A stretch of 64,000 bases of DNA. Source: Geosiphon pyriformis. Taxonomy: Eukaryota > Glomeromycota > Glomeromycetes > Archaeosporales > Geosiphonaceae. Under the pieces are notes generated by a model that saw only the letters and a list, made by a program, of their open reading frames with translations, ran no database searches and was not told the DNA's origin. The DNA is taken from NCBI GenBank assembly GCA_016748015.1, contig JAAOMT010000128.1, positions 723,223 through 787,222 of the forward strand. The letters run 5' to 3'. Shown here one piece after another: positions 18,781-50,385 of this stretch. The position numbers and the translations under genes are program-made. The stretch's first letter is position 1; the number at the start of each line of letters is the position of its first letter.

Positions 18781-18816
18781 TTATTACTATTATTATTATT
18801 ATTATTATTATTTTAT
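18781..18816. repeat. TTA/TAT trinucleotide run
   Basis: A nearly perfect (ATT)n microsatellite within the AT block. Confidence 0.8.
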
Positions 18817-21440: not shown

Positions 21441-23020
21441 CTTAACTGAATATTATAAAAAATTCAAAAATGCCTATTCTAAAACTTACAAATCTAAAAC
21501 ACAGTGTTTAAACAATTAACCAAGAATTCCAATAGTATTAGAAAATCTAATTACTGAAGTTATTTTTGTTTCAGCTTATGTTTAATCTTAAAAAATTTGT
21601 TTGTTTTATTTTGTAATATAATTGTAATATCTTTAGTATATTTTGTATCTATAACTTTTCTTCTAATAATGATTTTTTTGCTTGTTAATAATAATTGTAA
21701 AGTAATTTGTATTATTGCTTTTAGTAGAATTTTAAAAACAATTTTAAAATTAATTTTAGTTAAAGATTTTGGTTAAAAGATTAAAGTATTTTTTTCTGAA
21801 TATTATAAGTCATATTTAACATCAATATTATAAGCTTTTTCTGGCTTAATTTTTTAACTATTGTTATTAAAGTATTTCAATTACAATATTAATTAATGTT
21901 TAATTAAGTAGATTAGTATTGTTAACAGTTTTTTTTGATTCAGGTTTTCCAAATTTGATTTTGTATTTATTATTTTCAATAGATAATAATATGTTAAAAG
22001 CACAATATTTTAAACACTATTAGTTATTACATAACATGAAATATTTTTTACATAATTAAATGTTCATTTGTTTTAATCATTAAATTTGAATTTTTTTGAA
22101 AAGATAGATGTAACTAGCAATTTAATGATACTTTTTTATTTTATTTTCATAGTTGTATTTAGTAATTTCAAAAATATACTCAATATATTCAGCTTCTTTT
22201 ATTTAGTAAATATTTTTTTGGGTGGCTCTATTAATTAAAACTATAATGAGATCATAAATTATTTTAGCATTATGTAAATAATAACAAAGTTTATTAAAAG
22301 TACTGTTGTATATTGTGTTAAAAAATGTTTTTTTTCTGACTTTTTTAGAAATTGATAAAACATATTAACAAATTTAATTGCATACTCTTTCTCTTATTGC
22401 AATATTAATTTAGTTGTATTCTTTAAGCAGTAATTTTCTACATGTAAAATAATATGTGTTGTTCTATTTTCTATTTTATTTTAGGCTGCCAAATTATTTT
22501 TAGTAACAGATTTTACAGTAATAACAGATATAAGTTTTATATTTCTTTTCAAGCAATATGTAAACTTTTATAAATAAAAGCTTTTTGTTATAATTTTTGT
22601 ATTTAAGTAGAATATAAAATAATTGCTTTTTTGGTTCTAGTTTTAAATATAAGACATATTAATTATTAACTGATTTAATTACAAAAATAGATTGTTAACT
22701 AGTCTTTTTAGTCCATAGTATTATTGATTATAATATGAATGTTTTGAATAACTGCTTTGTTTTTTCAGTCTAATTTAATATTAATTCAAGAATTATATAA
22801 GTCTTAGTAATTGGTTTTTTTTCTTTTTTAAATTTAAACACTATGACTTTTTAAGATTGTTTGTTAAAAGTATTACAAATAGCAGCTACTCAAGTATATT
22901 ATTCTTGATATAAAATCCTTGATTTTTAAGTTTCTTAATTTAAATTTGCATTGGCTTTGAGAAGTTAATTATTTCTAATTAGAGCTTGGTATTGAGATGT
23001 ATTTATGACTAAAATCTTGA

Positions 23021-24033
23021 TTAAAATAGTAATTTTATTAATTGTAAAGAGAAATTGTTAATTTTTCTAACTAAAATCTTTTTTATACTATCTGCTATAA
23101 TAATAATAGTCTGGACTAGTCTATTAATACTATGATTAAGTTGTTGTATTAATTGATAAGTAATAATACTTCTAGCAGATTTATTGTTTAAAATTAAATA
23201 AATTGGTTTTTTTTTTACTTCAGCTTTTATATATATTGTTGTAATTGTTTTTTGTTTTATAATAACTATATTGCTAAGCAAAAATGGTAATTTATTTGCT
23301 TCAAATTCGAATAGAAAAATATTAGAAAAATTGGTATTTTCAGCAATTCTGACTGGTAAAATTATGTAATTATTAAAAAAGATTTATCTTGGTACTGCAA
23401 TTTCATTTTCAAAAAGTGCAGTTTGTTAAAAATTTGATTCTTTTGATATTGTGAGATAATTAGATTAAGTGTAGTAATACATGGGCTTTTGTTCAGCTAA
23501 GTTTTAAAAAACCAATTAATTATTTAGGTTTATTTTGTTGTTATTAAAAAACTGATTTTATGATGTAAATTGGTTTTGTCAAACCAATTTTTTAGTAAGT
23601 ACTTAATATTATTAAGTGAATAATATAAAGCAGATAGCTCTAAAGAAAATTGTATTTTAAGATAAGATTAAGATACATTGTCTTAAAAAGAAAAGCTTTT
23701 CTTTTATATAACTTATTATAATATTAGTATATGAATTTTAACTTTTTTTTTGTTATGATTTTAACAAATTAAAAATATATTTTAATAAATTACAAGTTAT
23801 TTCTACAAATCATTAATTATTTTGTTAAACTATTAAAATATTTTACAAATTTTTAAATATTACAGAGTTTAGATTATTATATTTATATATTATATAAATC
23901 AAATTATTAATTGAATAGTAATATTTAATAATATGATTAAATAATAAGTAATAATTAAAATAATAAGTAATAATTAAAATAATAATAATATATGCTAATT
24001 AATACTAAAAATTATAAAGAGAATTTTATGTTA
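23021..24033 (-). mobile_element. Dead Ty3-type element fragment, minus orientation (protease plus LTR part)
   Basis: The frame 23021-23281 (-) reads VKKKPIYLILNNKSARSIIT and then ADSIKKILVRKINNF, a retropepsin-like region. The expected catalytic D-S/T-G is eroded to NNKS. About 23640-24033 is the reverse complement of the first part of the LTR seen at 62.69 kb: shared blocks include AAAAGCTTTTC, TACAAGTTATTTCT and GCTAATTAAT. The space between protease and LTR is too short for a full gag, so the copy is probably internally deleted. Confidence 0.6.
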
Positions 24034-27000
24034 TTTATTAACTAAATTTTACTGGTAACTATATCAAATAAATATGTTCTAAATAGTAGAATTGTAATTA
24101 TTTTATTAATTTAAATTATTTCCAAGTTTTTTGCATTATTTTTAGATAGTTAATAAGTAGAATAATAGTTTTTATAGAACTAAAATTTTGGTTTTTATAT
24201 TTAGTCTTTCTTAATTTTTTTTAGATTTCAGTAGTAATTAATCTGATAATTCAGAGTAAAAATAAGAAAATTTTTTGTACAATTCTTTTTTTTAATTTAA
24301 TTATATATGATTAATCTAATTTATTGTGTAATAAAATTATAAGATTATTTATATATTTAAAGTTTATAATTTTTTCTTTGATATTAATTTTTTTTTGGCT
24401 AAGTTAGATTGAAAAACTATTTGTACTATGATTTCAATTGGTATTTTAAATGCTATTTTTAGATTAATCATAATAAAAATAAAAGATTTTAATATTAATA
24501 TTTAATTTTTAGAGTATTAAAAATCAAATCTAGTATTGTTTAAATGTATTTATTCTAGTAAAATTCTTTGATTGTTATTAAAAAAACATTTAAAATTTAG
24601 TTTTTGTTAAAAGTATATAAATTGTTTGTTAGTGTTTTTAGTGTTTGTAAAATTTTGTTTTATGCTTTAGAATCTGAATAATTTCCAAGTTAAATTGCCT
24701 TTTTTAATAGTTTAAGCTAAAATTAACAATCAAAACATTATTGTAATTAATAAAAAATTAAATAATTCTTATATAAATAAGTATTAATCTGTATAAAATA
24801 TTGTTTTTGTTCTTCTTATATTGAACAAAATTTCTAATAATAATCTTGAAATTCTTATAAAAAGTTTAAAAAATTGTATTTAGCAACTTTTTTAATTATT
24901 TTTAAGAGTGTTTTCCAATTTTAACTTTTTTTGGCCATTTTATTTTGTATATTTGCTTTAGTAATTATTATAGATAAATTAGATATATGATGATAATATT
25001 TGGTGCTCAAAATTTGGGTTTTTAGAAAGCTTTTAAAGGTTTTCTTTTGGTTGACTTGTTTAGTGTATCAGTATTATCAGTCTCTAAAGATTTTTTTAAT
25101 TGATGTAAATTTATTTATAGAGTTTTTTAGTTATAAGGCACAAAAAAATGGTTTTGCAGTGTTGTAACTTTGTATATATAAGCTATTTTTTCTGAGCTAG
25201 TTGAACATAGTTACAGTGTTTTTTTGCCCTTTTGGTAAGCTAACAAAATAATATTAATATCCAATCTTAGAGGAAGCTTCTTTTTTTTACCAGGCTATTA
25301 CAAAGTCTATTTTTAAACAATTAATTTTTTTATATTGCTGTTCTACAAGAGAAAATAAAAAAAAATAAAAAAAAAATAAAAGAGGAGAAATTAGTATCAT
25401 TAATTGCCATAATTAAAAGTAATTGGTTCAAGTTATAATGATTCAAGATGGTTTTATATTAAGAACATCTGACTAAAAATAAAAGTAAGAACAAGATTAA
25501 TTCAACTAAAACATACAAATATAAGAATCATATAGATATGAATTTTGGGTTTTTAATATTTTTTTATTTTAGTAATATAAGATATAAGATGTAACAAAAG
25601 ATATATAGTAAATATAGGTAGAAAAAAGTTAATTCTTGTTTATTTGTCTGTCTTTTTATCTTCTATAACTACTCTTTTTTATACATTTCTTTTAGTTTTA
25701 TAAAACTGCTTTTGATTATTTTGTTATTGCTAATTATTGCTTGCTATTTTTGTTATTGCTTTATTTTTCTATATTATTACTAGTTATTCTAAGTTTAACT
25801 AGTTTTTTTGTGCTATATTATATTCTTGTATTTTGTATTATGTTATTCTGAGTTATTATACATTATTCTGTATTATTTCATGTTATTTTGTGTTATTTTA
25901 TGTTATTATATTTTGATCATGTTTTTTCATAACTTGAATTGGTTTTTTATTTAGGTAACAGTAGTTATTTTTTGAGAATTTACAGATATTTGAATAAGAA
26001 AAACTATAGGTTCTGGTTTTAATTTACTTAAAAATTTATTTATTTTTGGTATATTGTTTTCAGGTTTAAATTTAAATTCAGATTTAAATTTAGATTTAAA
26101 TTCTCAAATGGCTTGAAAGTTTGATTGTAAAGGTAGTAGATTTAAGAATTACAAAAAATATTTCTCTAAAATAAATTTTTTAAAGAGTTTTTCTTTGAAT
26201 AAAATATGAACATAATTAAGAATTTAAAAAATTGTTTTTATGATAAATAAAGATACAATTCTTAATATTATGTTTTAATTATCTGATAATAGATAATAAG
26301 ATAAGACTTTTGATAATATAATCTAAAGTTTTTTATATAATAAAATTAGTATTTGCTATTAATTTATATATTTTTAATAGAGTATTTATATTGAGATTTT
26401 TGGTTTTTGTTGTTTATTTTAGTTATTGTTTTTTCTTTTATTTTTGTTAAATGTAAATAAAAAACTTTGCCAAATGTATTTTTTAATTTTTTAGTATATT
26501 TGTATCAAAGTTATTAAAAATAATTGTGTATTAAGTAATATAATATGTTGAATTGATTTTTAATATAGGTTTTATTTTTGTTCTTAAAATTTTGGGCTTT
26601 GTTTAAATAGATATTGAATTTAATAATACACATAGTAGTTAAAAATTAATTTAGCTAAAAAACAATTATTAAGTAATCTCAATTTTTCTTAAAATATAAA
26701 TTTTAGCTAAAAAAATTAGAAGTTGTTGTTAGTTTTATTACTTTGATCTATTGATTTATGTAATTAATTATTGCTAGAATTTAAATAGCTTGGATAGATT
26801 AAAATTAAACTTTAAAGTAGATACTAAATATTACAAAAAAGTTTTCTTTAGAGATTGTACTATAATTAATTTCTTATACAGTCTTAGATTAAATAATAAT
26901 ACAAAAAATTATCAACTTTTAATATGATTATAAGTAGATTAGTCTTAATAAGTATTATTTTTAATTTATGTTAAATTCTCATTTAATAAATTATTATTAT

Positions 27001-27844
27001 TTTCTTATTTTAGGACTTAAAAATTAACTTAATGAGTTTTTCTTAACTTTTAACAAGTATTAAATAATTTTCTTTAATAAATACTTTTTATTTAATTTAA
27101 TATGTTGTATAATATTTATGTTACTGTTGATAACTACTGTTATACTAATCTTCTAAAAAGAATTTTTGTAATATTTTTATATTTTTATTTGTGTTTTTTT
27201 TTAAAACTTTTATAGAGATATTTTTTTTATCTTATATTAATATCAAACATTTGTATTTCTTTGTTTATAATAAAGTAGTACTTTATTTTTAATAAATTTA
27301 AAAAAAATTAAATAAGAAAAAGTAAAATTTAATAAAATTAGTATTCAAAAATAATCTTAATTAGAAATTATTTTTTCAAAACATAAAAAAATTGTTCCGA
27401 ATTTTTAAATTGTTTGTTAATTTTGGCCAAAGTATTATTACAAGTAAATTTTATGTGATTGTATATAATTAATATTTTTCTAACATGTTCTTAATTTTGT
27501 TAAGTTTGAGTTTTATCTGTATTCTGTTATTATATTATGTATTTTATTGTTTTTATTAATAGAAAATGACAATAAAAATTTGGTAGTCTTTTTTTTTTCT
27601 TTTTTGAGCTTTTTATTAAGACTTGAATTACAAAAAGGAAAGATTTCTAATTCTATTAATTTTATTATTAATAAATATTATAATACAAAGTTAAAAAAAC
27701 ACACTTTCTAATTTTTTTTGGAATTATAATTTAATTTTATTTAATTAACTTGTTATTTGTTTATTCTTTTTTTTAGTTAAAAAACTATTATATATATATT
27801 TTTTAAATTATATATAATTATTGTTATTAGTAGAATTTAGTTAA

Positions 27845-28720
27845 TAAATTAACATGAAATTATTTTTATAATTTTTATTATCAATTAGCATATTAGTATT
27901 GTTTTAATTATTACTTATTATGTAATTATATTATTAAATACTATTATTTAATTAATAACTTAATTTATATAATACACAAATGAAATAATTAGATTATGCA
28001 ATATTTCGAATTTTATAACAGTCAAAAATTCACCAAAAGTTATAGAATTTTGTGAAATAATTCAATAGTTTACTAAAATAATTTATAATTTATAATTCAT
28101 AGAAACAATTTATAGTTTACTAAAATGTATCTTTGGTTTATCAAAATAATAGTAAAGAAAAAAGTACAAGTTTAAAAACTAGTACAATAACAAATTGTAT
28201 AAAAGAAAAGCTTTTCTCTTTAAGAAAATATATTTTACCAAAGAATAATAATCTTAGCTAAAATTAACTTTATTAAAAATATCTTTCTTTAGTATTTATA
28301 CAAATTGTTTCAATAAAAATTATATTAAAAAACAACAAAATTTATAATTTTATTTACTTAAAATTCTCCAAATTCTGATTAATGTTTTGAAATTTATTAA
28401 CTATTAATTTTAATAAATCATTAGTAATTTCAAACTTAAACAGAAGATAATTTTCGTAACAAAATTTTTTTTTTATTTAGTATAATTATTAGAGTAGCTT
28501 ACAAATAAAATTTTTGTAGAAGAGTTAACTTTTCTAACAAAGTAACTACACATTTTAGTAAGCTTCCAAATAAACATTTCTTAAAAAAAAATTAATTTTT
28601 ATCATAAAATAACTATATAAGTAACTAATATAAAATTGGTTATTTTATTTATAAGTCTAACAGTTTAAATTATAAAAGATAATTTGAAAATAAATTCAGT
28701 TATTAGAAATTTAACAGCTT
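27845..28720 (+). mobile_element. Decayed 5' LTR and leader of a Ty3-type element
   Basis: This stretch aligns by eye over most of its length with 62.69-63.56 kb: ACACAAATG, TTTACTAAAATGTATCTTTG, TTGTATAAAAGAAAAGC, AAGTAACTACACATTTT and ATAAATTCAGTTAT occur in the same order. Differences are mostly C-to-T and G-to-A. A TATAAAA box near 28198 and the palindrome GAAAAGCTTTTC are preserved. It reads into the pol relic to its right. Confidence 0.72.
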
Positions 28721-31700
28721 TTAATAATTGTAAATTCGCAACAAAATAACAGTAACAATATTTAAAAAAAAAGACCAAAAATCTTTAATAATATTGTGTC
28801 TATTCTAATTAATTAGTAAATAATTGCTAAGTTATTAGGTCTTTTATTTGACTGTGAATGTTTTTTGTATTATTATTTTTGGTTTTTGTTAATTTCTATT
28901 AGATAATAATAGAACACTTTTTAAGAGATTGCAACAATTTTTTTCTGCTTTTATTAGTTTTTAGAAACAATAATAACCAAAACAACAAATCTAACAATAA
29001 TAGTGCTTTTAATTAAAGATCTAATTATGTTAATATTAATTTCTTTAGAGAAAATTTCTTAATTAAAATTATTATTTATTAGTCTTTAAATTAGTAGACA
29101 TATTTCTAAAAAATAAGAATACAAGTCAACCAAAAAAAATTTTTTTATGCTTTTAATTTAATTAATAAAATAAATTAACTATTAATTTTACTAAATTTAC
29201 AAAAAAAAAAAGTTAAGATTAATTTTATTTCAGATTTTAACAAAGTCTCAACTTTTACTACTGATAATAATAAGTCACTAAAAGCTAAAGTTTTTAAGAA
29301 TTTTCTAAAATTAGAACTTTTAAAAATTGTACAAAAATTTAGATCTTATTTTATTATTAAAAATTTTATAAAAATCCCAATATATATTATTTTTAATTAA
29401 TTAATAATCTATTTTTAATTCAAAAAAAATCTTTACAAATTTTTAATTTCAAAGAAAATTTTTTTAAAATTAATAAATGTTTTTAACAAACTGAATTTAC
29501 TAACAATAGTAATATTATCTTTTTAATTTACAAAGTTTAAGTGATTGGTTATTTTATTAATCTGATTCTAAACAATAAATTATTTGTTAATATTATTCTT
29601 AAATACTTTCTTAAAACAATTGGTAAAAAAATAAATAAATTTTCAATTCAACTTATAAACAATATACAAAAAAAGGCTTTTGTATAACCAAAGCTGTTCT
29701 TGTTTATATTAATAACATTAGCATTAAAACTAACATAAAAATTTCTAAAACAAAAAAGTATATTATAATTGTTAACAATAAATGGCCTAATAAAGTAAAA
29801 GTTTTACTTAATTATAAACTGTATAAACTAATTATTAGATATGATAAGAAGCTTATTATGATTAAGTATTATCATTAAACAACTTTTTTAATATCTAAAC
29901 AAAACCAAGAAAAAGAACAATTAAATAAATTAGATAATAAAAAAAGTAATAAAAAAGAAAAAAAAAGAACAAGAAAAAACTATTAAACTTATTTATATTA
30001 TTTTTACTAGCAATAGCAAGTTATTAAATAATATCAAAACTAACAAAGAAAAAATTATTGTAAATAACAAGTTAATCTGTTGGTCTTATTATAATATCTT
30101 TAAAAGAATTTTTAATAAAAAATCTGATAATATAATTACTAGTAGTAGAGTTTTTGTATATAGTATTAGTGTAATAAACTATTGTATTTTTCTAATAATA
30201 AATACATGTTTTGTCTAATTTATTACAAAGATTGGGAACTTATTAGCCTAATATTTAAAGAAAAAATAAAAGAAATAAAAAAATTTTTTGAAAATAAACT
30301 GCTTGAAATTTAATTATTAGTAGTAGAACAAAGAAAAATTTTTTTAGAAGAAAAAAAAACTAATATTGAAAATTTGCTGATTAAAAACAGTTTAATAATA
30401 TCAAAAGAAAGTAATATTCTTAAATAAATTTATATAATACAACATACTATTATTATCAGAGAAATTTATTCTATTTATTTAAAGTCTTATTAATTTAATT
30501 ACCACAATAATAAATTCATCAAAAAAAAATAAACCAGATAAAAAATTTTGGATTCATATAAAAAACCAAAAATAAATAAATTTTCTTAGTTATAGTAATA
30601 TTTAAGAAAAATAGAATCTTATACTTCTGTATTAATTACTATTAATTAAATATTATTACTAAAAAAAAAAATTATTTTTCAAAATTAATACAATACTAAA
30701 TCAATTTAAAGATGCTGCTTTTTTTTAATTATTAATTTGACTGCTAAATTTTGGCAAATAAAAATGAATTCAAAAAGTAGAAAAAAAACCACTTTTATTA
30801 TTAAATAGTACCTATAAATTTATAATTATGTTTTTTAGTTTTATCAATGTTTTTTTTATTTTTTAATGCTTAATAAACAAAGTATTTGAATCAGTCAATA
30901 GAAGTTTTGTTTTAGTTTATTTAAATAATATAATAGTATATTCAAAAATCTGGAATAAATATCTTGAATACTTGTAAAAAGTTTTTAATCTTCTTAAAAA
31001 TACTGATCTTAAAATCAATTTAATCAAATTTTTTTTTGAACATTAATCTATTTAGTTCTTTGGTCATCTTATTACAAAAAATAGAATTTTTTCTGATTTT
31101 GCCAAAATCAAAAAAGTTTAAAATATTAAACAATCAATAAATATCTATAAATTATATACTTTTTTTAAGTTGGCTTTTTATTATTAAAAATTTGGTAAAG
31201 ATTTCTTTAAAATTGTCTTTTTTTCAATCAACTATTCAAGAAAACTATCAATTATTATTAAAATACATATTAGTAAAAAGCCTTTTAAATTTTAAAAGAA
31301 AAATTAGTTATAGAACTATTTTTATACAACTTAATTTAAATTAATCTTTTATTTTTTACATTAATATATCTGACTTTAAACTTAGTGCTGTTTTTTTCCA
31401 GAAAAATAAAATAACAAAAAGTATATTATAGTTTATATCAATCAATTACTTTTTTTAATAAAACAAAATTCACTTAGTTATTAAACAGAAATACTTAGCA
31501 ATAGTTTAAATTACTAATTACTAAGATAAATATTTTTTTGGTATTAAATTTCTCATAATAACAAATTATTAAAGTTTGGTTTGGCTGTACAATAAAAAAA
31601 AGCTAAAACATAAATAAATAATTTGCTAAATACTTTACTTAAATGAATTTGACTATAATATATAATATTAGAAAAAAACAAATTATTAAAATGCTAATAT

Positions 31701-32800
31701 TCTTTTCAAACTTATTACTAAGTAATAGTACAATCTTCTTAAATTAAAACAACCTAATTATTAGTAACTTTATTTTAACCAAACATAATAATAGACTTAA
31801 ATAACTACTTTGTCTTAATAGAATTTTTGAATAAAAAACAATATTTACCAAAGTACACTTGATAGCAAAAAAAACATTTATTTAAATAATCAAATTTCTA
31901 TTTGATTTATCAAAACCAACTATACAAAAGAAACAAAAAAGATTTTAATAATTCTTAAAAAGTTATCAGATTTATAAAAAAAAATTGTAATTTACAATAT
32001 ATATTAATCTATTAGCTGAGCACTTTAGAAAAACAAAAACAATTCAGAAAATTTTAACTTATTATTATTGGTTTATCTTAAAAAAAGACATTGCTAAGTA
32101 CATAAAAATCTGTAATATTTGCCAAAAAATAATAATTTCAATCACAAAGAAAACTTATATTCAATCTTTATTGGCCAACTATTTGACAAAATTGGCATAA
32201 ATATTGTGAAATCTTTAACAATAATTTCTAATAACAACGGATATATTATTACAGCTACTAACTATCTTATAAAGTAAATAAAAACAAAAGTTATTCCAGA
32301 CCAAACAGCAGTTTTTATTGCCAATTTTATTTATAAAAATATTATTTGTCATTATAACTGTTCCAAAAAACTTTTGTTTAATAAAAAAAGAACTTTTCTT
32401 AATATACTAATTAAAAAACTTTATAAAAAGATGAAAATATATTATAAATTCTTTTTTTTTATCTTTAAACCAATAATTTAGTAAAATATTTCAACAGAAT
32501 TCTATATAAAATCTTAACCAAAACTAGTAAAAAACAAACTTATAAGACAAAATACTACTTTTAGCTTTGTTTGCTTATAGAACTATAAATTATGATATAA
32601 TAAGTTATAAATTTTTTTATCTGTTTTATGAACAAATAGCAATTTTACCAATAGAAATTAATATTAAAACAATATTTTTTAAAAAAATCATAATAAGAAA
32701 TTATATGAACATTTTGCAAAAAAACTTAATATAATTCTTAACTTCTTAATAGAAACACAAATAATTGTCTTTAAAAAGATAAAACAATTACAAATAAACT
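28720..32800 (+). pseudogene. Dead Ty3-type gag-pol interior (RT, RNase H and integrase remnants)
   Basis: Shredded frames follow Ty3 pol order. Near 29755 is YYIIVNNKWPNKVKVLLNYK. At 30915-30944 the RT motif reads VYLNNIIVYS, followed by KVFNLLKNTDLKINL and FFGHLITKNRIF. At about 32010-32130 is an integrase zinc-binding region with H...TYYYWFILKKDIAKYI...CNIC. At about 32225-32330 is an integrase core-like NNNGYIITATNYL...IANFIYKNIIC. The RT YxDD aspartates are both asparagine (AAT at 30924-30926 and 30927-30929). In-frame stops are frequent, so the element cannot be autonomous. No 3' LTR was identified before the LINE copy at 33.5 kb. Confidence 0.75.
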
Positions 32801-33534
32801 AAAAAAAAATCCATAAAATATTTTCTTTAAGTGTTGATAACTTAATTTTAAAATACTATTTAAACAAAAACAATGTTTATAAAAATAAATTTTCTAATCA
32901 GTAAAAAGAATTTTTTTTAGTAAACAAAGTTTTAAACAATAGTTTTTATATCTTATAAAATCAATATAATACAATTTTTAATAATCATTTTATTTATGAT
33001 ACAAAATTCAAGAAATATTACAAATAATCTAATTGGTTATCTGTTGTAATAATATTAACCTAAATAATTAACAAAAATTAAATATAAATAAATATACTAT
33101 TCCTAAAACAAAGATATTTTTAATTAAAATGAATAATTATTTCTTAAATCAAAATATTCAAAATGCTTTTTATATTTTTTCTAAATATTAAACCAAAATT
33201 TATCCAAATGACACTTTGATTATTAGAAAACAAATTATTATAACTGATAATAATAAGACTTATACTATTATTAATTTAAAAAAACTACTATTAAAAAAAA
33301 ATTGGTAATAAAATAGATAATTATCTATTTAAAAGCATAACAGCAGCAATACTTTTACTCTTTATTACAATTAAAAAAACAATTAAAAAAATTCTGTTTA
33401 TAAATAAAAATTTTTTATATAAAAAATAATTAAAATTTTATAGTTGTTTTTTTTTTATTTTATTTGCTTAATGAGTGCAGCCCAAAAACAATCTAGTACT
33501 ATATACCAAAAAAATGATCTAAACTAAATATTAA

Positions 33535-33580
33535 TCATGCATTTTTTACATGTAACTAGTTACTTGAACCAATTAAGGAC
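33535..33580 (+). repeat. Conserved LINE 3'-end motif with 12-bp palindrome
   Basis: The stretch ACATGTAACTAGTTACTTGA followed by ACCAATTAAG contains the perfect palindrome GTAACTAGTTAC. Eroded versions, all in the same orientation, occur near 17731, 19680, 38223, 44932 and 61352. At 19.7 kb it directly follows the ORF2 stop on the minus strand, so it belongs to the LINE 3' UTR in at least copies A, C and the ORF2 copy. Confidence 0.65.
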
Positions 33581-35711
33581 ACATTACACTGAAACAATAA
33601 GAAGTGGGAATAATCTCAACTCATGAATTTTTTAATAACACTATTTAGATTCCTAGAATCAAAAATAAACTCATTAAGAAATAATCTAGTAAATTCAACA
33701 CTACTCCTAATCTCAGCACCTGACATTTGCCACAAAGCTATAATACACTCAACAATATTTTCACTTAAGAGAGAAGGTTTGGTAATCTGCATATCATAAT
33801 AATTCATGCCACCAAAGTCAACTTCAGATTTAAGACAAGCAATGTCCTTAGACACACCAACCAAAAGATTGGCAAAATTGTTAGAAGCATATTTCATAGA
33901 AAAAAGATCTTTCTTTGACTGAATAGTCTTAACAGCATTATTATCAAGGAGACAAGATACTAAGACAACCAAAGAGCCAACAGGCTCAATAATAAATTTT
34001 ACCAAAGCAGCCAAATTTGAAATTTGCTTTTCCAAAGAGTTTAATCTGAACCCAACAGCAGGATCAACAATAGCCACAGGAGGGGTGGAAGCCACCAAAG
34101 GAGGAAATTCAGACATAACAGGGGGAGCAGATGCCTTAGCATAAGACAAAGAACCAACAAAATGTGGTTTGAATACCTTGAGAGCCTTAGAAAAGAGAGA
34201 TAAAGCAACTTTACAGTTTACAGCCAAGTGACCTGTTTCTTGACACTGAAAACAATACCAACAATTAGAAGTCTCCCACCAGATACAGCACTTTCTAAGT
34301 GTACCAGTATTGGCAACAACAAGATTCAAATCAGCTTGAGAGCCAAATGTAACTAGAGCAAAGTGGAAACAATGACCAGAATCAGGAGACCAAGAAATGA
34401 AACAAGACCAGCCACCAACCTGAGAAATCATATTACTAATTTCAAAAGCAGTACAGCCAAAAGAAAGGTTGACCAACTTGGTCTTAAACCTATTACAAGA
34501 CAAAATAGTCTCATTTTGATTCACCAAAGGAAGGATTCTAACACAATCCTTGTCCATCAATACTGACTAATGATTCAAAGCAGACATGACAGAATCTAAC
34601 TTCTCAAAATGAATTATCACATATTGCCAAATGCCAGCAGGCTTCAGCACAACACAAGTAACCATACCAAAAACATTAAAAGCTGTCTTAATGTCAGCAG
34701 CAGACACACTCAAAGGCACATTATGCAGTACAACAGTAGTAGAAGGGGATTCAAACTCAGAAACCACCAAAAACTTGGCAATTTTAAAAGTGGCAAGATA
34801 AACAGAGCTTGTAAGCTCAACTAAAAATGCAGTATCTAAAGAGGTTTGAAAAGCAAATTCCATACAAAAAAGCTTCATATTGTCTTTTAAAACAGACTTA
34901 GCACTCAAAAAACCATGTATAGATTGAAAAACAGCCTTAATATAAGTTAATTTGATTTTAAAAGTAACACCAGGCACCAGAGTAGAGACCACCCACCCAG
35001 CAAACCTTTAATAACTAGCAATAGTTTCCCAAGCACTACCAGAAGTAGCACCAGAAACTAGAGGAAAAAATGATTCAGTTTCTATCTGATCAGCCCAGTT
35101 TACAAAAACAAATAATCCAACAGAAGAAGATTGTTTTGCTTCTAAAACTGGTGATGATCTGCCAAAAGACACCACATTTGGCAACACAGCCAGTAGTTAA
35201 TCTTGGCCTATCTTGGATAATATGCCAGATGATGCTATGGAGATTTCATCTAAGATCTCATTTGGAACCACAAAGGGGTTCAGTATAACAATAGTAGAGG
35301 CAGGTAACTGTCCCATTTTTTTGAACTTTTGGTTTTTTTGATCATTTTCTTTAAAGAAGAGATACTAGAAGCACCAGATGTTGAAGCTATAGAGGGGAAC
35401 ACCAATTTGTTAACTGGTCTATTATTAAATACTTTTGGGCTTTTAGTAAGGATAGAGGCAACACTGGAACTAACTCAAGTATGTCTCTTTGAGGGAACTT
35501 TGACTGGTGAGAAACCAGCCAAAGATAAGAAAGTTGTTCCAGTGGCTACCAAAAACAGCTTTTCATGATTACTGGGTAAAGGAAAGGCTTCTAAAATGTT
35601 TTGCCTAGTTGCTTCTACAACAGAGAGAGCTTTTCTGGTTGAAATTTTATTAGATATCTTAGAACAGATATCAAGTGCAGCTTTTTTACTCTTTGCTCTA
35701 ATTGTGGTCAT
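33535..35711 (-). mobile_element. LINE ORF1 copy A (best-preserved, ORF2-less)
   Basis: Read from 35711 leftwards: start (M-T-T-I-R-A-K-S-K), a low-complexity Ser/Lys-rich segment, then 34992-34567 and 34560-33616. The last frame has a CCHC zinc knuckle (CFQCQETGHLAVNC), as in gag-like ORF1 proteins of jockey-type non-LTR elements. Breaks are a TGA after KVPSKRHT, disruptions between 35.0 and 35.47 kb, and a TAG at 34567-34569 where copy B has TGG. After the ORF1 end (stop at 33616) comes about 40 bp and then the same 3' motif that follows ORF2 at 19.7 kb; no ORF2 lies between. Its base composition is much less AT-biased than its surroundings, so it inserted late. The product would be an RNA-binding retrotransposon protein, now non-functional. 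Confidence 0.8.
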
Positions 35712-38700
35712 AAAATTAAGGAAACAAAGAGTATTTTTTATGCTGTTGTTTTAGTAAAATTATAGAAAATATAAAGTTTATGAAAAAAAATAAACTCAAA
35801 AATACAAGTAAAAATTTTGAATATTATATAATTAGATATTTCAAAAGTTTTAATTATTGCTAAAAGAACCAAAATTTTTATACAAAGATTTAGTTTCTTA
35901 AATTTAAAACTTATTTTATCTTAGATAATATATACTTTATTTATAAAAAACTTTATCAAATTAGTTAGCTTTAAGTTAAATAAAACTTTTTAAATAGATT
36001 ATTTCATAAATAACTTGATTTTACTAAAATTTAATTTCTTTAAAGATAATTAAAATTCATAGTTTTTATTAATTATTATATATAGTAACCAATAATATTA
36101 TATAATTAACTATTTTATTTTTAAATAATAATTATTGACTTAATTAATAACTTAATTATTGACTTAATCATTGATTTAATTATTAATATAATTGCTAACT
36201 TGATTATTAAACATTTTTAATAACTATATAAATAATAAGTCTCTTAATTATAAAAAAACATAATTATAATTAAAAAAAAATAAAATAACAATTATTATTT
36301 TAATTTTTTTTTTATTACTTATTTTTTTTTTTTTATCTTTAAGTATCTTAATATTCTGAAATAAAAAATTACTTATTAACAATTATTTATCTTTTTTTGA
36401 TTTATATAATTGTAGTATTTAAAGATTATTAAATAAAATATGACTAAAAAAATAAATTTAATACTTAATATTGAATTCTAAAAGTATTAACATAAGATAT
36501 AAAATTATACTAATATATTATCATTTATTAACAATATGAATTATTTCTTTACTTTCAAATTCTTTAGTTTATTTTTTAAAAAGAATAGCAATTAAAATAT
36601 TTTATAAAACTAATCTTACATATTAAATTTATACTTATTTAATTTGCTTCTTAAAGTTAAATTTTTTTTGATTTTTATTATTATTTTACAATATTGTTTT
36701 TCTTTGTTATTTGTTAATTTATTACTTTAATTTATAATAATATTAAGTTTTATATTAAAATTATTAGCCACATTTTGTAATTTAGATTATTAAATAAGTT
36801 GGCTTTATAAAAAAAACCACATAATTTATAGTCAAAATAATAAAAAGCCAGTATAATTATATATTAACAAAAAAAGTTTTATATTAAAACTTTTATTTTT
36901 TTGGTTTTTTTATTATTGTGTTTTAATTAATTCTGTTATTGTTATTAATTCCATAATTGATTCAAAATTAAATTTTTTAAAATTTTAAATCTTTAATTTA
37001 GCTGTATTAATTAAGTTTGTTGTTAAATTAATTGGTTTTTTGATTACTTAAGTTACTTTTTTTTAACTGTAAATTATTAAAAAAAGTTTAAAATAAAAGT
37101 TAATCTAATTATAATAACTAATATTACTTTGGGTTTTGTTGTAATTTTGGTTAATTTGTTTAAAAAAATAATAAAATAAGTACTATTAAGATATTTTTTT
37201 TAAACAGTTAATATTTAAATATTTAATATTATTATAACAAATAAATACTTTTAATATTAAGAGTAACATAAAAAAAATTAAATTATTTTTAAGTAAATTT
37301 ATTTCAATAATTAAAATTCAAATAATTATATTAATAAAATTAATAAGTTGAATTTATTTTTGGTTTTTCTAATTTAGTTTAATTTAGTTTTAAATAATTT
37401 AAATAGTTAATTTTATATAAAAAACATATAAATTATAATTAATTTTAATTTAGAATTTTATATAATAATTAGTAATTTAGTTATATTTTATTAAAGCATA
37501 ATAATAATAATATTTTATATAAAAGATGTATCTAGTAAAAAAATTTTAAATATTAATATTATTATAAATATTAACACTTGAATTATCTGATTTTTTAATT
37601 ATAAACCTGTTTTTTTTTGGTTATTTAAAGCAATTTTTTAAGTTTTTTACTGTTTTTAAAATTATTTTACTAAATTTATAATTTATATTAAAACTGTTGT
37701 TTTTTTTAATAATGTTTAATTTAATAGTTTTATTAATAAAATATATAATTCTAATTTGAATTTTTTAAATTTAGTTAAATTTATAATTGTAAAATTTGAT
37801 ATTTTGGTAAATTTAATTGTTTTTTTGGTAATTATTAAAGTAACCTTTAATATAAATATTAAAAGTTATTTTGTTTTTTTAAAAACTTGAATTAAGTATA
37901 TTGTTAATTTAATTATTATTATATTTATAGTTTTAAAAATTATAATTAATTATTATTAGTTATAAAAAATACATAATATATAAAACATATTAGATAATAA
38001 TTGTATAAATATGTTAAAAATAAACAAGTATTTGCTAAATATTTTAGTAAAATTAAAATATTAAATGTTTTTAATTTGAAAAATATATTAATTTAGATCT
38101 AAATAATTAATTATATATAAAAAATATTTAAATTAAATTTATAGTTTAATTTTTAAGAATAAATGATATAGAACTTAATAAGATTATACTTTGGTAAAAA
38201 TTATTCATAAATTAAGTATTTTTTATATGTAATTAATTATTTTTATTCATTAAAATTTAAGTTAAAACTAATTTACTATTGTGTTTTTATTTAATAAATT
38301 ACAAAATCAAGATTTTTATTTTTAAACTATGTAAATACTAATAAGTAATTTTTTATCACAAATAATGTTTAAATACTTGAAAATAAGAAATTAATAAGAA
38401 AAAGAATTAATAAAAAAAGAAATAGTATATTCAATATATTTAAAATCCGATAATTTTCTATAATTAAAAAAAATATTGCTATATAGCTAATAAAAAAAAT
38501 GTAGTAATACAATATTTTATAATTAGCTTAACAATTTTTGTTTTAAATTACTAATTAAAAAAATATTATCAAAATAAGTGAAATTCTAAAATTAATAATA
38601 TTTTTAATTTGAATAAAAAATTTATTTACAAAAATGTTTTTGATTAAAATTGGTTTAAACTACTTGTATTAAACACATTTATAAATTAAAGAAATCGCTT

Positions 38701-43714: not shown

Positions 43715-44900
43715 AATATCAGATTAAACAAAGGAAATCCAGTGACTTATAGTCTTTCCTTTTAAGTCTTGCTAACAGACATCCAATGAGCTGTTTTTAC
43801 AGCAATTTTCTTGGGATTCAGACTTGGATGTCTTTTGTTCTGAATTTTAGTTTGTAATATTCAAAATATTTGAGCTTTTAGTTACACCAGTTTGATTTAG
43901 GTACTTTGGATCAATAACTTCGTGGTTGTGAATATCGATTGCTTCTAAGCTTTTCTATACTTGATTATTTTCTTATTAATTCAAAATAAATGTTGTCTTT
44001 GTACAAACTAGTATTTTGGAATGTTATATTGAAAAATTGCCTAAAAACGATTAATAAATGTCTGAAATTCCTATTTTAACAGTTGAAAATTTTAATTAAA
44101 AAAATATTTATTTTTAATTCAATTTTATAATTTTTGTTAATTCATATTAAAATACAATTGTATAATAATTTTATAATATTAAAGTAAATAAAAAACAATT
44201 TATTTTTATATATTCTAATTCTATTATCTTAATTGTTGTTTTATTGGAAATATTTTATTTTTTGTAAATTATTATAAATAGTTTTTTTAAATGAATTCTT
44301 ATTATAATATTATTTATTTAATTTTTGTATATTTCTAAATACTACTTTAATTTATTAATTAGTTTTAATAAAAAAACAATTTTTAAAATCAAAAAAATTT
44401 ATTATTTTAAAAAACAATTTTAAAACTAAATTAATCAATATTTTTTAAAATTAGTAAATTGGTTTTTTGAGTATATAATTAAACTTATTTTATTTTTTAT
44501 TTTATTTATTTTATTTAATAGTTAAAATATATTATTATTATTTTTAATTTTTAAAAAAATTTAAATATTATTATTATTAAAACTAGTACATTAAAAAAAT
44601 TTTATTTAATAAAAAATATTTGGTTGTTAAAATTGTTTTAAGTATTAAATTTTGAATTATTTGATTTTTAAAATATAAAATATTTTTATTTTATTTATTA
44701 AAACTAATATTTAAATTTGTAATAAATCCTAAAATTTTTGAAATTAGTTTTTTAATATAAAATTATACACAAAAATTATTGTTTTTTTTTAGTTTTTTTT
44801 TTGTTGTTTTTGATTTTATATTTAACTTTAAATTGAAATTTTTTTTATTATGTTTTAACAAAGTATATTTAAACATTATCTAATATTATATATTAAATCA
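43715..44900. other. RFC1 3' flank grading into AT block
   Basis: The first about 330 bp are ordinary 3' flank. From about 44.05 kb the DNA becomes extremely AT-rich with homopolymer runs. No gene or named element is visible here. Confidence 0.6.
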
Positions 44901-44909
44901 AATAATCTA

Positions 44910-46990
44910 AATTAAACATAAATTATGTGTTTTTTATATGTAACCAATTATTTGAATTAGTTAAAACACTAACTAAACTGAATTAAAAAAAGCTAGAAAT
45001 AAATTCTGTTTATTAAGTTTCTTAATAATATTATTTAAATTTTTAGAATTAAAAATAAAATCACCAAAAAACAATCTAGTTTTTTAATATTATTTTTAAC
45101 TTTAGAATTACATATTTGTTATAAAGCAATTATATAATCATATGTTTTTTTGCTTAAAAAATGTGTTTTAACAATACTTAAATTATTATTATCTATATTA
45201 TTAAATTTAATCTTAGTTTTAAGATTAGCAAAGTTCTTAGATATATTAGCTAAAGAAAAAACAAAGTTTTTAAGAGCATTAAACATAATAAACAAATTTT
45301 TTTCAACTTTGTAATTTTTATGCATATTTTCAAATATAAAAAAAATAATTAAAATAACCAAAAAACCAATAGATTTAACAATAGACTTTATCAAAACAGC
45401 CAAACTTAAGACTTAAAATTTCAAAAAGTTTATTTTAAACATAATAGCTAAATCAACAGTTAAAACAACCAAAAAAACAGCAGAAAAAAAAACCAAAAGA
45501 ATAAAAATTATAGCATAGATTTTATTATTAACAAAAGATAACATAAAAAACTAAAAACTAATAATAAACTTAAAAAACAACTTAAAAGACAAAAGTAAAA
45601 ACACTTTATAATTAATAGATAAATAGTTTAAATTTTAATATTTATAATAATAGCAGTACTTAGAAGTTTTCTATTAAATATAACATTTGTGTAGAGTACT
45701 AGTCTTAACTATAACAAGCTTTAATATTTTATAAGACTTGAAAATAACAACAACAAAGTATTAATAATAATAAAAATTAGAAAAACAAAGAATATAACAA
45801 GTATAACCACCAATTTAAAAAATTATATTACTGATTTTAAAAACAATAAAACCAAAAAAAATTCCTTAAAATAATAATTTTTTTTTAATTGAAGAGAAAA
45901 AAAATTTGAATACTATTTTTTTTAATTAGTACAAACCAATTATTAAGAACAATAATTATAAAAAAAAAGTTTTAAAAGTTACAATGATATATTGTCACAA
46001 GTTAACAAACTTTAATTTTATTAAAGTGATAATACCAAAAACACCAAAAACATTTTTAATATTATTAAGAAATATATTAAAAAAAATATTATAAAATACA
46101 ACAAAAATGAAAAAAAACCAGAAGCTATTATAAAAAATTTTACAATTTTAAGTGTAATTAAAAAAAGAAAACCACTAATAAAAATTTTAATAATAGTAAC
46201 CAAAAAAGCTTTAGAAGCAAAATTTATATGAAATAACTTAATATTGTCTTTAAAAACTAATTTGATCTTAACAAAACCAGACAATAAATAAAACAAAAAA
46301 TTAATTAAAACTAATTAAATCTTAAAAATAGCACCAAATATTAAAATAAAAATCACTTATTTAAAGAATTTTTAATAAATAAAATTTTTTTTTTAGGTAT
46401 TATCAAAGACAATATTAAAAAACAAAAAAGTAGAAATTAAATTAATTTTTATTTAATTAATTTAATCTTTAAAATCAAGTAATTTAATAAGTTATTTTGC
46501 TTTTAGAACTGATAATAATTTACCAAAAGACATTATATTTAACAATACAGCCAGTAATTAATCTTAATTTATTTTAAAAAACATGTTAATATTATTATTG
46601 TTTATATTAAAAAAAAAACTAAATACTGTTAAAAAGATCTTATTTAAGATTTTATTTGAAATTACAAAAAATTTAATATAACAATAGCAAATACAAGCAA
46701 TTATTGCTGTTTTTTTAATTTTTTGATCTTTTTGGCCATTTGTAAAAAGATGATAATAATATTAGTAATAAAAACAAAAAAAACCAATTTGTTAACTAAT
46801 TTGTTATTAAAAATTTTAGATTTTTTAAAAAATGTAAAAACAATTAATTTAAGTGTGTTTTTTAAAAAAAACTTTAACTAATAAAAACTACCAATTAAAA
46901 ATAAAAAAAATACTTTAAAAACTACAAAAGACAACTTTTTATTACAAATATTTAAAAAAATGTTGTTATAACATTTTGATTATGGTCATA
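44910..46990 (-). mobile_element. Heavily AT-decayed LINE ORF1 copy C (ORF2-less)
   Basis: It is collinear with copy A in the same orientation. 46021-46296 (-) reads KDNIKLFHINFASKAFL against copy A KDNMKLFCMEFAFQTSL. 45119-45403 (-) reads FANLKTKIKFNNIDNNNLSI against CLKSEVDFGGMNYYDMQI. Near 45040-45070 FIFNSKNLNNIIKK matches FIFDSRNLNSVIKK. The DNA at 46.50-46.56 kb matches 35.14-35.20 kb with C-to-T and G-to-A changes. The 3' motif follows at 44.93 kb with no ORF2, as in copy A. The element is certainly non-coding now. Confidence 0.75.
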
Positions 46991-47199
46991 AAAATAGAAA
47001 AGAAAAAGAATTATTTGGCTTTTTTGAAATTTAAGTTGGCTAAATTAATTATATTAATTAGATTTATTATTGAATTTAATTTTTTGGTTATTTTGATTAT
47101 AAAATTGATAAGTATTTTATTTGTTATTAAAAAAAATATTGGTATTTTTGAAAAAATTATTAGTAATTTAAATAAAAAAAATAATTAATCATAATGTAA

Positions 47200-47897
47200 C
47201 ATATAATGTCAACAGTATATTTAATAAAATAATGGTTTTTTGGAAGTTTCAAGTTTCAAATATCAAGTTTGATGCTGCATAAATGACTGGTTTGGTTGTT
47301 CTTTTATAGATTCAATGTAGTGTAGACTTGATTGGCTGGTGTGGTTGGTTACGTATAAGCCACATTTAATTTAGAACATATACCTTATTTTATAGTATTA
47401 AATAGTGGTTGGGCTTCATTCATTAATAAAAATCAGAATTTGAGACTATTTTAGGGTCAAATATTTTGTTCTATATTTGACGAAAAAAACAAAAATGGGA
47501 ATTAACATTTACCGTCGAGATAGACAGTGGAATCTCTATAATTTTTTTACTGCACTTAAAAGTTTGATATATCGTTTTAATAATTTGTAAAGCTTAGATT
47601 GTTTTATCTTATATTATTTGTCATTCCTATTTTATTTTAAATATTAATTTAATTTGTTATTTAAACTTCTACATAATCAAATTAAAATCAAATAGAACAT
47701 TTTAATAATAAAATTCGATGTGTTTTTCTTTTCTGTAATGTAATTTTCAATTAAAAAAAAATTTAAACCAATTCAAACTATAAAATATACCATACAAATT
47801 TTATTTGGAAAATTTGTGTTTTAAGCAAGTTCCGGATGGATTGTAACACATGAATAATAGGCAATACTAAGCATTGCTATGTAATGCTTATTGTTTC
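47200..47897. other. Spacer between AT block and Fanzor relic
   Basis: About 700 bp of moderately AT-rich DNA with no supported gene. It lies 3' of the Fanzor relic, where an omega-RNA would be encoded in an intact element. An 8-bp-stem hairpin lies at 47868-47890. Confidence 0.5.
47868..47890 (-). repeat. Hairpin just 3' of the Fanzor relic
   Basis: TAAGCATT and AATGCTTA form a perfect 8-bp stem around a 7-nt loop (GCTATGT). It begins about 8 bp beyond the last recognisable relic codons. It could be a remnant of the guide RNA or element end, or a chance palindrome. Confidence 0.45.
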
Positions 47898-50165
47898 CTA
47901 TATGGTCAAGCAATGCACCAATTTCTCTCTATCCATAACAAGCTTATAATTTTGGCAAGTATACACCGATTCTTGGATATTTCCACACTCCTAATTCTTC
48001 TTGGTGATCAGATGTTGACGAAATCGATAGTGCGCCCAGCATAGCACCTTTCTAACTGTTTTTCATGCGATTTTCGATTCATCATGTCCGATACCTCAAA
48101 GGGAAGAATGAAAGTAGCATCCAATTCGTGAGTGAAGAATGCGACAGCCTTTCTGCGTATTTCTGTCTGCAAGTCTAAGATCTTTTAATGCACGCACCCA
48201 ATCGCCTTTTCTAATTTTCTGGCTTTAACTTTCTTAGGTTTTAAGGAGGTATTTAATTTATCTTCCTTTGAGCAAAGGTCATCTATAAATTTGTAGAGGT
48301 GAAAAATATGACTGATGTCACAAGAGCATAATTTGCCTTCTTTTGTTGGGGAATACCATGTAAATGGAGTGCAAATGCCAGGATCTATGGAGACTGCATA
48401 AACAGAACTATCCGCTTGGGTTTCGGGGAGCTGTTTTTGGCTTGTATACCCAGACAAACTTCCATTCATTAGTTTTGCGATAGTAAGTGAGCTTGCCATC
48501 ACATGTGATCTTGTGTGGATTGGGGCACTTGTATTTTTACGTTTTTTTTTCGAAGTGGAGAGGCCATAGTACATGTTTTTCCTAAAAATAAAGAGCAAAA
48601 TATGGCATAAAAACGACATAAATAATGATTAAAAAAAACAAAAACGTAAAAATTTATTATCTTTACCTTGTATCGATGTACATATGCATATTTTGTTAGA
48701 GTGTGAAGGTAAGATACATAGAAGCGATTCCAAGGTAACTTGGCAAAACTCAGATTGAAAAGAAAGATAATGTGTTGATGCACCTTGTTGTCGCTGTGTA
48801 TTACGTTTAATAACTTTCTTTCGCGTAACCAATTCTTGATCAATCGCTTCATCTGTGATGTTTGAGCCTAAGCAAACCTCTTGAGAGCATGCCAAGATGG
48901 ACAATGGCTCTGAAAACTTTTCTTTCACCGCAGATAGCCGAAATATCATTAAAAAGAAGACATTTTTGTTGAAACGTCATATGTTTTAACCATCCTTTTT
49001 CCGTGATACCATCTTGTCTCATAATGATGCGACGCCTTTTGCTATCCCACCACATATTGGAAGTAAATCTCGCCAAGCCCATCCATCGCTTCTGAAGGAG
49101 GTTGGGATACATCTTGACTAGTAACGTGCGGTTGAGGATACCTTCCGTCTTCTGACGTTTGCCACGAGCTTCTGTTTGTTTACTAATACAAATGACAGCA
49201 TACTGGTGGTCAACTCAAAAACCGTCACTACTCTCGTACTTGACGCATGTAAATCGTGAAGAGTCGATTCAAGCCTTGCGGAAGGAAGAACTAGATTCTC
49301 AATACGTGTCTTAGTTAGTAAAAATCACGAAGCATTATAAAGAAGAGACCAATGCCTTTACCTTGCGCTTTTTTGTTCCTGCGTTCTCTTCAGTAGCGAG
49401 ATCTCCTTCCCTGCATGCGGCAGATGAACTGTGTTGAAGGCAAGAATATCCTGGAAGAGTTGTGCCCGTCAGAGGTCGCATCGTCGAAGAAAACCAGTTT
49501 TGTAGAATGGAGATTTATTGGGGGAGGTCAAAGGCAAACAGGCAGATCATATCCTTCCAATATTATTTAACTGCGTTCGATCGGTTTTGGTCCTGTATTA
49601 TGCCAAAATTTCGTGTCAATGACAATTAGAAAAAGCTTTCTATCTGCGGAAATTTGAACCAAAATGGAACACGCAGCACAGAGGCAATTCCCCCCAGTAA
49701 CACGGAGGTCGTTGGGGATAGGTTGATCCAAAGTGGAACACGCAGCACAGAGGCAATGCCCCCCAGTAACACAGGGGTCGTTGAGGACACAAATGGCCAG
49801 CGAAGCAGTATGAAAGAAAATACTTTTTGAAAGTTTTCTAACCAAGCCCGAGCGGCTATTGTTCGTTTTGCGTCTTCATGAACCTCATCAGCGATAACTG
49901 AGAAAGTTCGCTTGTAAACGCTGTGGATCAATCACACTGGGTAATGGCAACTTCCGAGGCAGCACCGTATGGCTTGATCGTTCCAGTAGGGCCTTAACCC
50001 CTTGGCGCTTGAAGCTGACGCCAGAGCCGATATTGCTAACGAGCTCATATGTCGGGAATCTGGAGAGAATTGTTTTTGTCGCTCAAGGTCCTCTTTTTGC
50101 TTCGGACCAGAGATATGGGTGTAGAGGTAATCTTTCTTAGTGCGGGTGGTGGTATCAGGAAGAGG
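47898..50165 (-). pseudogene. Broken Fanzor/TnpB-like RNA-guided nuclease gene
   Basis: Eukaryotic relatives of TnpB are RuvC nucleases guided by omega-RNA. Read leftwards: an N-terminal region (KGLRPYWNDQ near 50.0 kb, then a frameshift), an NLS-like TKKRKVK near 49.36 kb, the RuvC-I block VSIDPGICTPFTWYSPTKEG (Asp codon 48383-48385), HIFHLYKFIDDLCSKEDKL, then a TAA at 48185-48187. In the same frame follow EIRRKAVAFFTHELDATFIL and PFEVSDMM (RuvC-II Glu codon 48095-48097). After a frameshift come KTVRKVLCWAHYRFRQHL, a stop, then CGNIQESVYTCQNYKLVMDR (Asp codon 47931-47933). The RuvC motif order and the WAHYRFRQ block are diagnostic of the family. Some 30 residues before the zinc finger appear deleted, and the second zinc-finger pair lacks a Cys. 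No start codon was found. The relic is divergent from VPS51, about 220 bp away. Confidence 0.82.
49659..49796. repeat. 69-bp imperfect tandem duplication inside the Fanzor relic
   Basis: Two units start at 49659 and 49728 (CCAAAATGGAACACGCAGCA and CCAAAGTGGAACACGCAGCA) and stay similar for most of their 69 bp. The unit is 23 codons, so on the minus strand it repeats GGIASVLRVP in frame. The unit is GC-richer than its surroundings. Confidence 0.85.
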
Positions 50166-50385
50166 TATTTATTTTCGCGATTTTGAACCTGATAAGTACC
50201 TGATTAATATTTTTATTGATTACCAAATCTTTTCATCGGCTAAGATTTCAAAAATTTGAGATGCATAAAATTTTCAAATCAAGAAGCGTGCAGCCTTGAG
50301 ACTAAGTATGAGTCAATATATTTTTGGTATCATCAATAGCTTCCTCACACCTATTTCTGTTAATATCTAGTGGTTCCGTTAAGAG

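Follow-up and report, generated by a model that had tools for sequence, protein, structure and literature searches.

The minus strand of the window (the whole stretch of 64,000 nucleotides analysed here) carries what a preliminary description had read as a Fanzor nuclease relic within a fungal gene island. The locus raises the question of what kind of mobile element left this relic, whether any member of its family is still intact, and what the N-terminal extension of the nuclease represents. The relic was found to be a single copy of a decayed IS607-type element of about 2405 bp with a TnpA transposase and a Fanzor2 nuclease, in which later insertions account for 557 bp (Table 1). We consider it highly probable that this is a long-dead fungal IS607-type transposon in which the N-terminus of Fanzor2 overlaps TnpA in the +1 frame.

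Table 1. Features of the decayed element in the window, listed from the left end of the element to its right end.
Feature	Position	Strand	Basis
Whole decayed IS607-type Fanzor2 element	47833..50237	-	homology among copies begins and ends sharply at left CGATGAAAAG (near 50237) and right CAATCCATCCG (47833)
TnpA (serine recombinase) remnant, catalytic N-terminus KKDYLYTHISGPKQKEDLERQKQF	50073..50147	-	NF033518 model 51-75, 13.6 bits, E 0.037
TnpA remnant after frameshift, PTYELVSNIGSGVSFKRQGVKALLERSS	49972..50055	-	NF033518 model 88-115, 14.8 bits, E 0.015
Putative Fanzor2 N-terminal extension motif KGLRPYWNDQ	49974..50003	-	+1 frame over the TnpA piece; same bases, two frames
381-nt insertion private to the window copy	49547..49927	-	missing from all other copies; single copy in genome
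TnpA C-terminal part overlapping second half of Fanzor2 extension (LQNWFSSTM...), then basic stretch TKKRKVK	49353..49546	-	aligned copies
176-nt insertion	49177..49352	-	common to three other copies only
Fanzor2 core, N-terminal part (TLLVKMYPN..QKRWMGLARFTSN; wedge/REC start)	48849..49176	-	tblastn among copies; homologous to viral Fanzor2 RIYPxxxQ core start
Putative spliceosomal-type intron GTAAAG...TTTTTAG, 85 nt	48582..48666	-	GT-AG junctions in window
Fanzor2 RuvC-I region with DPG; VSIDPGICTPFTW at 48394-48356	48185..48581	-	L083 1e-14, P0001 6e-5
Fanzor2 RuvC-II region (EIRRKAV..ILPFEVSDMM) and pre-zinc-finger helix KTVRKVLCWAHYRFRQHL at 48062-48009	48009..48184	-	L083 and P0001 matches
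Deletion junction, about 57-60 nt lost: catalytic Ealt glutamate and first zinc knuckle	47986..47987	-	alignment with paralogues
Second zinc knuckle (one Cys lost) and RuvC-III aspartate, YTCQNYKLVMDRE	47925..47963	-	sequence, L083 match
Right end, predicted 11-bp hairpin; candidate guide-RNA scaffold and recombinase site	47833..47890	-	sharp stop, kept in about 20 copies; fold prediction

The size of about 2.4 kb follows from the homology limits in the aligned copies, outside which the flanks are unrelated. The feature had earlier been placed at 47898-50165; it is real but longer, and its sharp ends are common to many copies. Neither terminal inverted repeats nor a target duplication were seen in the end alignments of the copies. 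Element DNA was found to recur across the 124.7-Mb genome, at more than 40 places and with 67-81% identity for the main matches, and this count is a lower bound as 40 of 164 candidates were scored. The copies have a median ungapped pairwise core identity of 82% with close pairs being absent, and C>T and G>A changes are about 3-11 times commoner among them than other changes, which together point to an old burst of spread followed by decay biased towards cytosine loss. A pair of IS607 copies on two contigs (C310:450158 and C397:2589) was observed to have identical match scores and identical upstream ORFs, and represents either a recent segmental duplication or an uncollapsed haplotype.

The private 381-nt insertion contains a 69-bp tandem duplication (TRF). 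The 176-nt insertion occurs at four places only (C370, C258, C386 and C170). With GTAAAG beside it and TTAG close to its end, it may represent either another intron-like segment, of young age, or a small mobile piece. An Rfam search of the scanned loci for a guide RNA gave no match, and the hairpin at the right end shows no useful covariation, a measure that is uninformative for copies that have decayed neutrally.

Direct Pfam and NCBIfam scans of the window fragments gave no significant single match, as expected for a broken copy, and the identity of the nuclease was therefore tested by homology. A viral IS607-type Fanzor2 (L083) matched the 64-kb window in linked, co-linear tblastn pieces (E=1e-14), with RuvC-I and RuvC-II at 48424-48074 and the stretch from the pre-zinc-finger helix to RuvC-III at 48074-47925, whereas a cyanobacterial TnpB (Trichormus, P0001) alone matched the same place at 6e-5. 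A single window fragment had no match in the PDB and a chance-level match only among phages. In the whole genome PF01385 (OrfB_IS605) had no match, and PF07282 (TnpB/Cas12f zinc ribbon) matched 117 places (best 2.8e-18), many of them just downstream of window-family copies. The top PDB match of a less decayed paralogue was mimivirus L79, which is the Fanzor2 of PDB 9b0l according to the title in the fold search (3.9e-11, 46 bits, against about 32 bits for Cas12f/TnpB-type chains); a better match to Fanzor than to TnpB was the check that the preliminary description had proposed. The best plasmid match was a cyanobacterial TnpB of the group regarded as pro-Fanzor by Yoon et al. 2023 (PMC10711439). 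The ranking of matches, both in the PDB and by window scores, thus places the nuclease closer to Fanzor2 than to other TnpB proteins. Single-sequence scans of viral contigs for Fanzor2 relatives found nothing, and an alignment-based scan did find relatives.

According to Yoon et al. 2023 (PMC10711439), two features define Fanzors: a DPG motif at RuvC-I, and an alternative catalytic glutamate, Ealt, six residues ahead of the zinc finger. The DPG is present as VSIDPG in the window and in about ten paralogues. As the paralogues carry Ealt (NEAYTSKTC), the family has this second signature too, and it is the window copy that has lost it. The window keeps half of the zinc finger and the RuvC-III motif VMDRE, and the paralogues match PF07282 up to 2.8e-18. 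Because both Ealt and the first zinc knuckle are deleted, the window copy could not cut even with a whole frame. Many viral Fanzor2 proteins (L087, L091-L102, L104) were observed to have no recognisable CxxC..CxxC zinc finger while Ealt and the RuvC-III Asp are kept.

The earlier call of a Fanzor relic in a fungal genome therefore holds, with the L083 match, the DPG and the mimivirus Fanzor2 as best PDB match of a paralogue. The peptides on which it was based were all recovered on the minus strand in the order given, spread over frames (EIRRKAVAFFTHELDATFIL..PFEVSDMM in frame 48184-48008, KKRKVK in frame 49514-49335), and the co-linear L083 pieces have RuvC-I, -II and -III in family order. PFEVSDMM does belong to the RuvC-II region, but it is not the catalytic glutamate, which lies before the zinc finger (PMC10711439) and is deleted here. 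The locus is a pseudogene as had been described, with its pieces split over frames in addition to this deletion.

The preliminary description recognised the nuclease but missed the transposase that accompanies it. NF033518, an IS607 transposase model, matched 62 places in the genome (best 5.4e-21), several of them in window-family copies, and PF00239 matched three places, with matches above threshold in paralogues. The two TnpA pieces in the window are individually weak, but they are adjacent and co-linear in two frames and are located where the paralogues match NF033518 strongly. In most copies the TnpA frame ends within the region 49353-49546. TnpA lies upstream of Fanzor2 on the same strand in the window-family elements, and this order, TnpA followed by a TnpB homologue, makes the element IS607-type. 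Judged by the IS607 TnpA and by the absence of TIR and TSD, the nuclease is a Fanzor2 within an IS607 element and not a Fanzor1.

The Fanzor2 gene is interrupted between its REC and RuvC-I parts by an 85-nt intron-like segment. An intron acceptor context was found in thirteen sequences by a scan, with a CAAG|GTAAAGATAAT-type donor picked in about half, and the viral Fanzor2 and cyanobacterial pro-Fanzor ORFs read through without this segment. It would be removed by splicing as a GT-AG intron.

No intact Fanzor2 copy was found in the searchable assembly, in which gaps or unsearched stretches could hide one. The longest open frame reported among the 117 zinc-ribbon matches has 183 aa, none of the 62 TnpA matches reaches the NF033518 cut-off, and sixteen extra loci picked for strong or paired matches contain no full-length frame. 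The intact relatives that had been expected elsewhere in the genome were accordingly not recovered, and the searchable genome holds no living fungal OMEGA system. The family has dozens of copies, all of those found are decayed, and it is long dead. A second Fanzor family was also observed (C354:385399-387799, C114:444049-446214 and C295:580596-582741; loci L063, L067 and L072), the main copies of which are 74-89% identical and less decayed, yet broken. It has PPFNASQ in the RuvC-II block, and its upstream traces resemble a deleted TnpA. A nuclease-dead Fanzor was considered for this family on account of PPFNASQ in place of PPFEVSD and was rejected, as the catalytic glutamate of Fanzor is Ealt, which is kept there.

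The N-terminal extension of Fanzor2 (about 95 aa) was found to overlap the catalytic domain of TnpA in the +1 frame. The bases that encode KGLRPYWNDQ read GSGVSFKRQGVKALLERSS in the next frame, which is the TnpA catalytic-domain motif GSGxNFKRxGLxxLLE. In viral loci the TnpA and Fanzor2 ORFs overlap, Fanzor2 being in the +1 frame, by 360-640 nt (stop to stop). A P-[FY]-W motif occurs 25 nt after NFKR, a spacing that is equal in the fungal locus L045. Since these loci show that both frames are real, the idea that KGLRPYWNDQ is a mere out-of-frame reading of TnpA was dropped. The cyanobacterial pro-Fanzor loci of Nostoc (L069) and Trichormus (L068) share the overlap (e.g., SYLPYWNEFSQAMSEWLWSAIKTDYADLDLNSSNG...NSWFSTK). 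KGLRPYWNDQ is thus part of a Fanzor N-terminal extension as had been proposed, but the extension is not specific to eukaryotes. Annotated TnpA-TnpB pairs from other bacteria and one archaeon overlap by 4-38 nt or are separate genes. In the Trichormus locus (1581-2138) TnpA has an in-frame stop and the overlapping pro-Fanzor frame is open, and a viral Fanzor-like protein (L108) has DVG for DPG with the PFWN...SWFS extension present.

The +1 frame is open in all thirteen viral loci tested and in two cyanobacterial loci. In the viral loci the open stretch runs for 120-212 codons, always to the end of TnpA, and under synonymous-codon permutation of TnpA it is longer than expected in each of the thirteen (P<0.01 in twelve, 0.047 in one). 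The same was observed for Trichormus, whereas the +1 stretch did not reach significance in ten control non-Fanzor IS607 loci, and of the thirteen viral loci a single one has a significant +2 frame. Codon identity at equal amino acids, relative to the codon-usage expectation, is 1.37 (95% CI 1.26-1.50) from NFKR to the end of TnpA in Fanzor2 and pro-Fanzor loci. The corresponding values are 0.95 and 1.01 for the upstream parts of these genes, and 1.02 (0.95-1.10) for the ten controls. Identity of the +1 peptides was above that of codon shuffles with z=18.2 for the overlap, compared to 0.3 for the N-terminal part and 0.2 for the controls; some viral loci are near-duplicates and this relatedness inflates the z-scores, with the non-overlapping part of the same genes serving as internal control. 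Synonymous sites are therefore constrained in the overlap, as measured in the viral and cyanobacterial relatives.

An extension profile from which fungal sequences had been left out matched the fungal copies in the predicted frame (3e-14 in L032, 8e-12 in L045), and a profile of extension plus core matched residues 77-166 of mimivirus L79 (4.3e-10), in an alignment that covers the SWF-type segment of the extension. Among the fungal copies, the overlap shows no shared stop column in the Fanzor frame and five in the control frame. Decay has gone too far in these copies for selection to be measured, and they indicate only that the frame was ancestrally open. AlphaFold predicts a confident core for a viral Fanzor2, with residues 1-90 at low confidence (pLDDT mostly 28-60) apart from short secondary-structure elements near PFWNDYCKEIQSNLWLP and SWFSIK. 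This fits an extension that would be mostly a flexible tail with two conserved short motifs, an arrangement that is common among overprinted segments. The extension is likely to be translated. Its motifs might bind RNA, TnpA or a host factor, and it is attractive to speculate that there is a link to TnpA.

We regard it as probable that the extension arose de novo by overprinting of the TnpA catalytic domain in a pro-Fanzor ancestor, and that it was translated and kept from cyanobacteria to giant viruses and fungi, so that the DNA they share would lock the transposase and the RNA-guided nuclease together. The open +1 frame and KGLRPYWN might instead be a by-product of TnpA conservation and codon usage, with Fanzor2 starting at its core and no overlapping protein part being made. 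TnpA is indeed strongly conserved exactly at the overlap, the public annotation begins the Trichormus TnpB at the core, and the AlphaFold confidence is low for all but the short elements. We nevertheless find such a by-product unlikely, as codon shuffles that preserve TnpA break the +1 frame, the synonymous constraint is confined to the overlap of Fanzor2 and pro-Fanzor loci, and the cryo-EM mimivirus Fanzor2 contains the second half of the extension. If, instead of an internal start, a programmed +1 frameshift were used to make the nuclease as a TnpA-Fanzor2 fusion, this would suit several loci (e.g., L105 and L102) in which both frames are open through most of TnpA. The +1 constraint, however, starts near NFKR and not where the open stretch starts, and in-frame ATGs occur just upstream of the motif in several loci (e.g., L092 and L095), which makes a frameshift a quite unlikely source of the protein.

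Similar weighing applies to how the element came to lie in this genome. The closest full-length homologues were found in viral contigs and giant viruses are known to carry Fanzor2 IS607 elements (PMC3627910), hence the element may have entered the fungus inside an endogenised giant virus, with the relic being part of a viral insertion. The copies, on the other hand, stop sharply at the IS607 ends with unrelated flanks, the distance from one element end to a fungal exocyst-like gene is about 150 bp, and the Fanzor gene has the intron-like segment. A viral insertion is accordingly a rather improbable source of the copies, although this evidence bears on the copies as they now stand and not on how the element first entered. 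Contamination by bacteria, or a recent IS607 insertion of bacterial origin, was also considered, given that IS607 is a bacterial family with close relatives of this element in cyanobacteria. It is excluded for practical purposes by the intron-like segment, the location of the copy in a 2.7-Mb contig with the exocyst-like neighbour, and the fungal chitin synthase held by the assembly, with more than 40 old decayed copies also counting against it; the preliminary description was sound in setting aside recent bacterial contamination.

Under the favoured reading of an extinct IS607-type Fanzor2 transposon, the living element would have been moved by the serine recombinase TnpA, with neither terminal inverted repeats nor target duplications, and its Fanzor2 would have been a DNA nuclease of the DPG/Ealt clade guided by RNA. 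In IS607/TnpB systems TnpA excises and inserts without target duplication, a guide is made from the right end and the nuclease cuts the empty donor. By analogy with this biology, a guide RNA from the right end would have led Fanzor2 to cut the empty donor site, where repair would have restored the element, and RNA guidance of the fungal Fanzor2 is inferred in the same way. The first ~95 residues of Fanzor2 would have been read in the +1 frame from the DNA of the TnpA catalytic domain. The intron in the Fanzor gene appears to have been gained in the fungal lineage of the element, and an old burst of spread would have been followed by the decay of all copies found.

Taken by itself the fungal element is ordinary, being a new though dead representative of the known Fanzor2-IS607 systems. 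Its family shares the core with DPG and Ealt and the second half of the extension with the viral IS607-type Fanzor2 proteins including that of mimivirus (L79, PDB 9b0l), and an IS607 TnpA upstream of Fanzor2 with the related viral loci. The viral elements are intact and intronless; in the fungal family, which is dead, the Fanzor gene contains an intron-like insert. The cyanobacterial pro-Fanzor IS607 elements (Nostoc, Trichormus) have in common with it TnpA, a DPG/Ealt TnpB and the +1 overlapping extension, but they are prokaryotic, their TnpB frame is intact and they are without an intron. Fanzor1 (e.g., Spizellomyces SpuFz1) has the same DPG and Ealt signatures and is also multicopy in fungi; in the literature it belongs to other eukaryotic transposons, often with TIRs and TSDs, in contrast to the IS607 TnpA and the absence of TIR and TSD in the fungal element. 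Ordinary IS607 elements (e.g., Stanieria, Levilactobacillus and Sulfolobus plasmids) likewise have TnpA followed by TnpB in one element, but with an overlap of 4-38 nt or separate genes and no conserved +1 extension.

Fanzor2 was tied to IS607 by Bao and Jurka 2013 (PMC3627910), who had it in only four yeast species among fungi, and Saito et al. 2023 (PMC10432273) found it broad in fungi and noted N-terminal extensions. Overlapping serine-recombinase and TnpB ORFs in bacterial IS607 have been described in general terms (PMC9956272). No mention of the TnpA-Fanzor2 gene overlap was found in PMC3627910, PMC10432273, PMC10711439, PMC11423790 (Fanzor structure) or the searched IS607 papers of a partial library. 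The relic adds a multicopy, intron-bearing, extinct family to the small known set of Fanzor2-IS607 systems, but the conserved long overlap matters more than the relic. It would give a simple reason why Fanzor2 stayed with the IS607 TnpA while Fanzor1 was free to join other transposons, and it adds to DPG and Ealt a third marker of the pro-Fanzor/Fanzor2 clade that is easy to score. In addition, a conserved part of the protein may be absent from Fanzor2 constructs trimmed to the TnpB-like core.

Several very AT-rich islands (GC 11-22%) were observed in the window at 18000-34000, 36000-38000 and 44000-48000, between gene blocks with mostly 33-41% GC, and the right end of the element borders the last of these islands. 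An ORF with a CCHC zinc knuckle at 33616-34566 is probably a retroelement ORF1, of a kind common in arbuscular mycorrhizal fungi.
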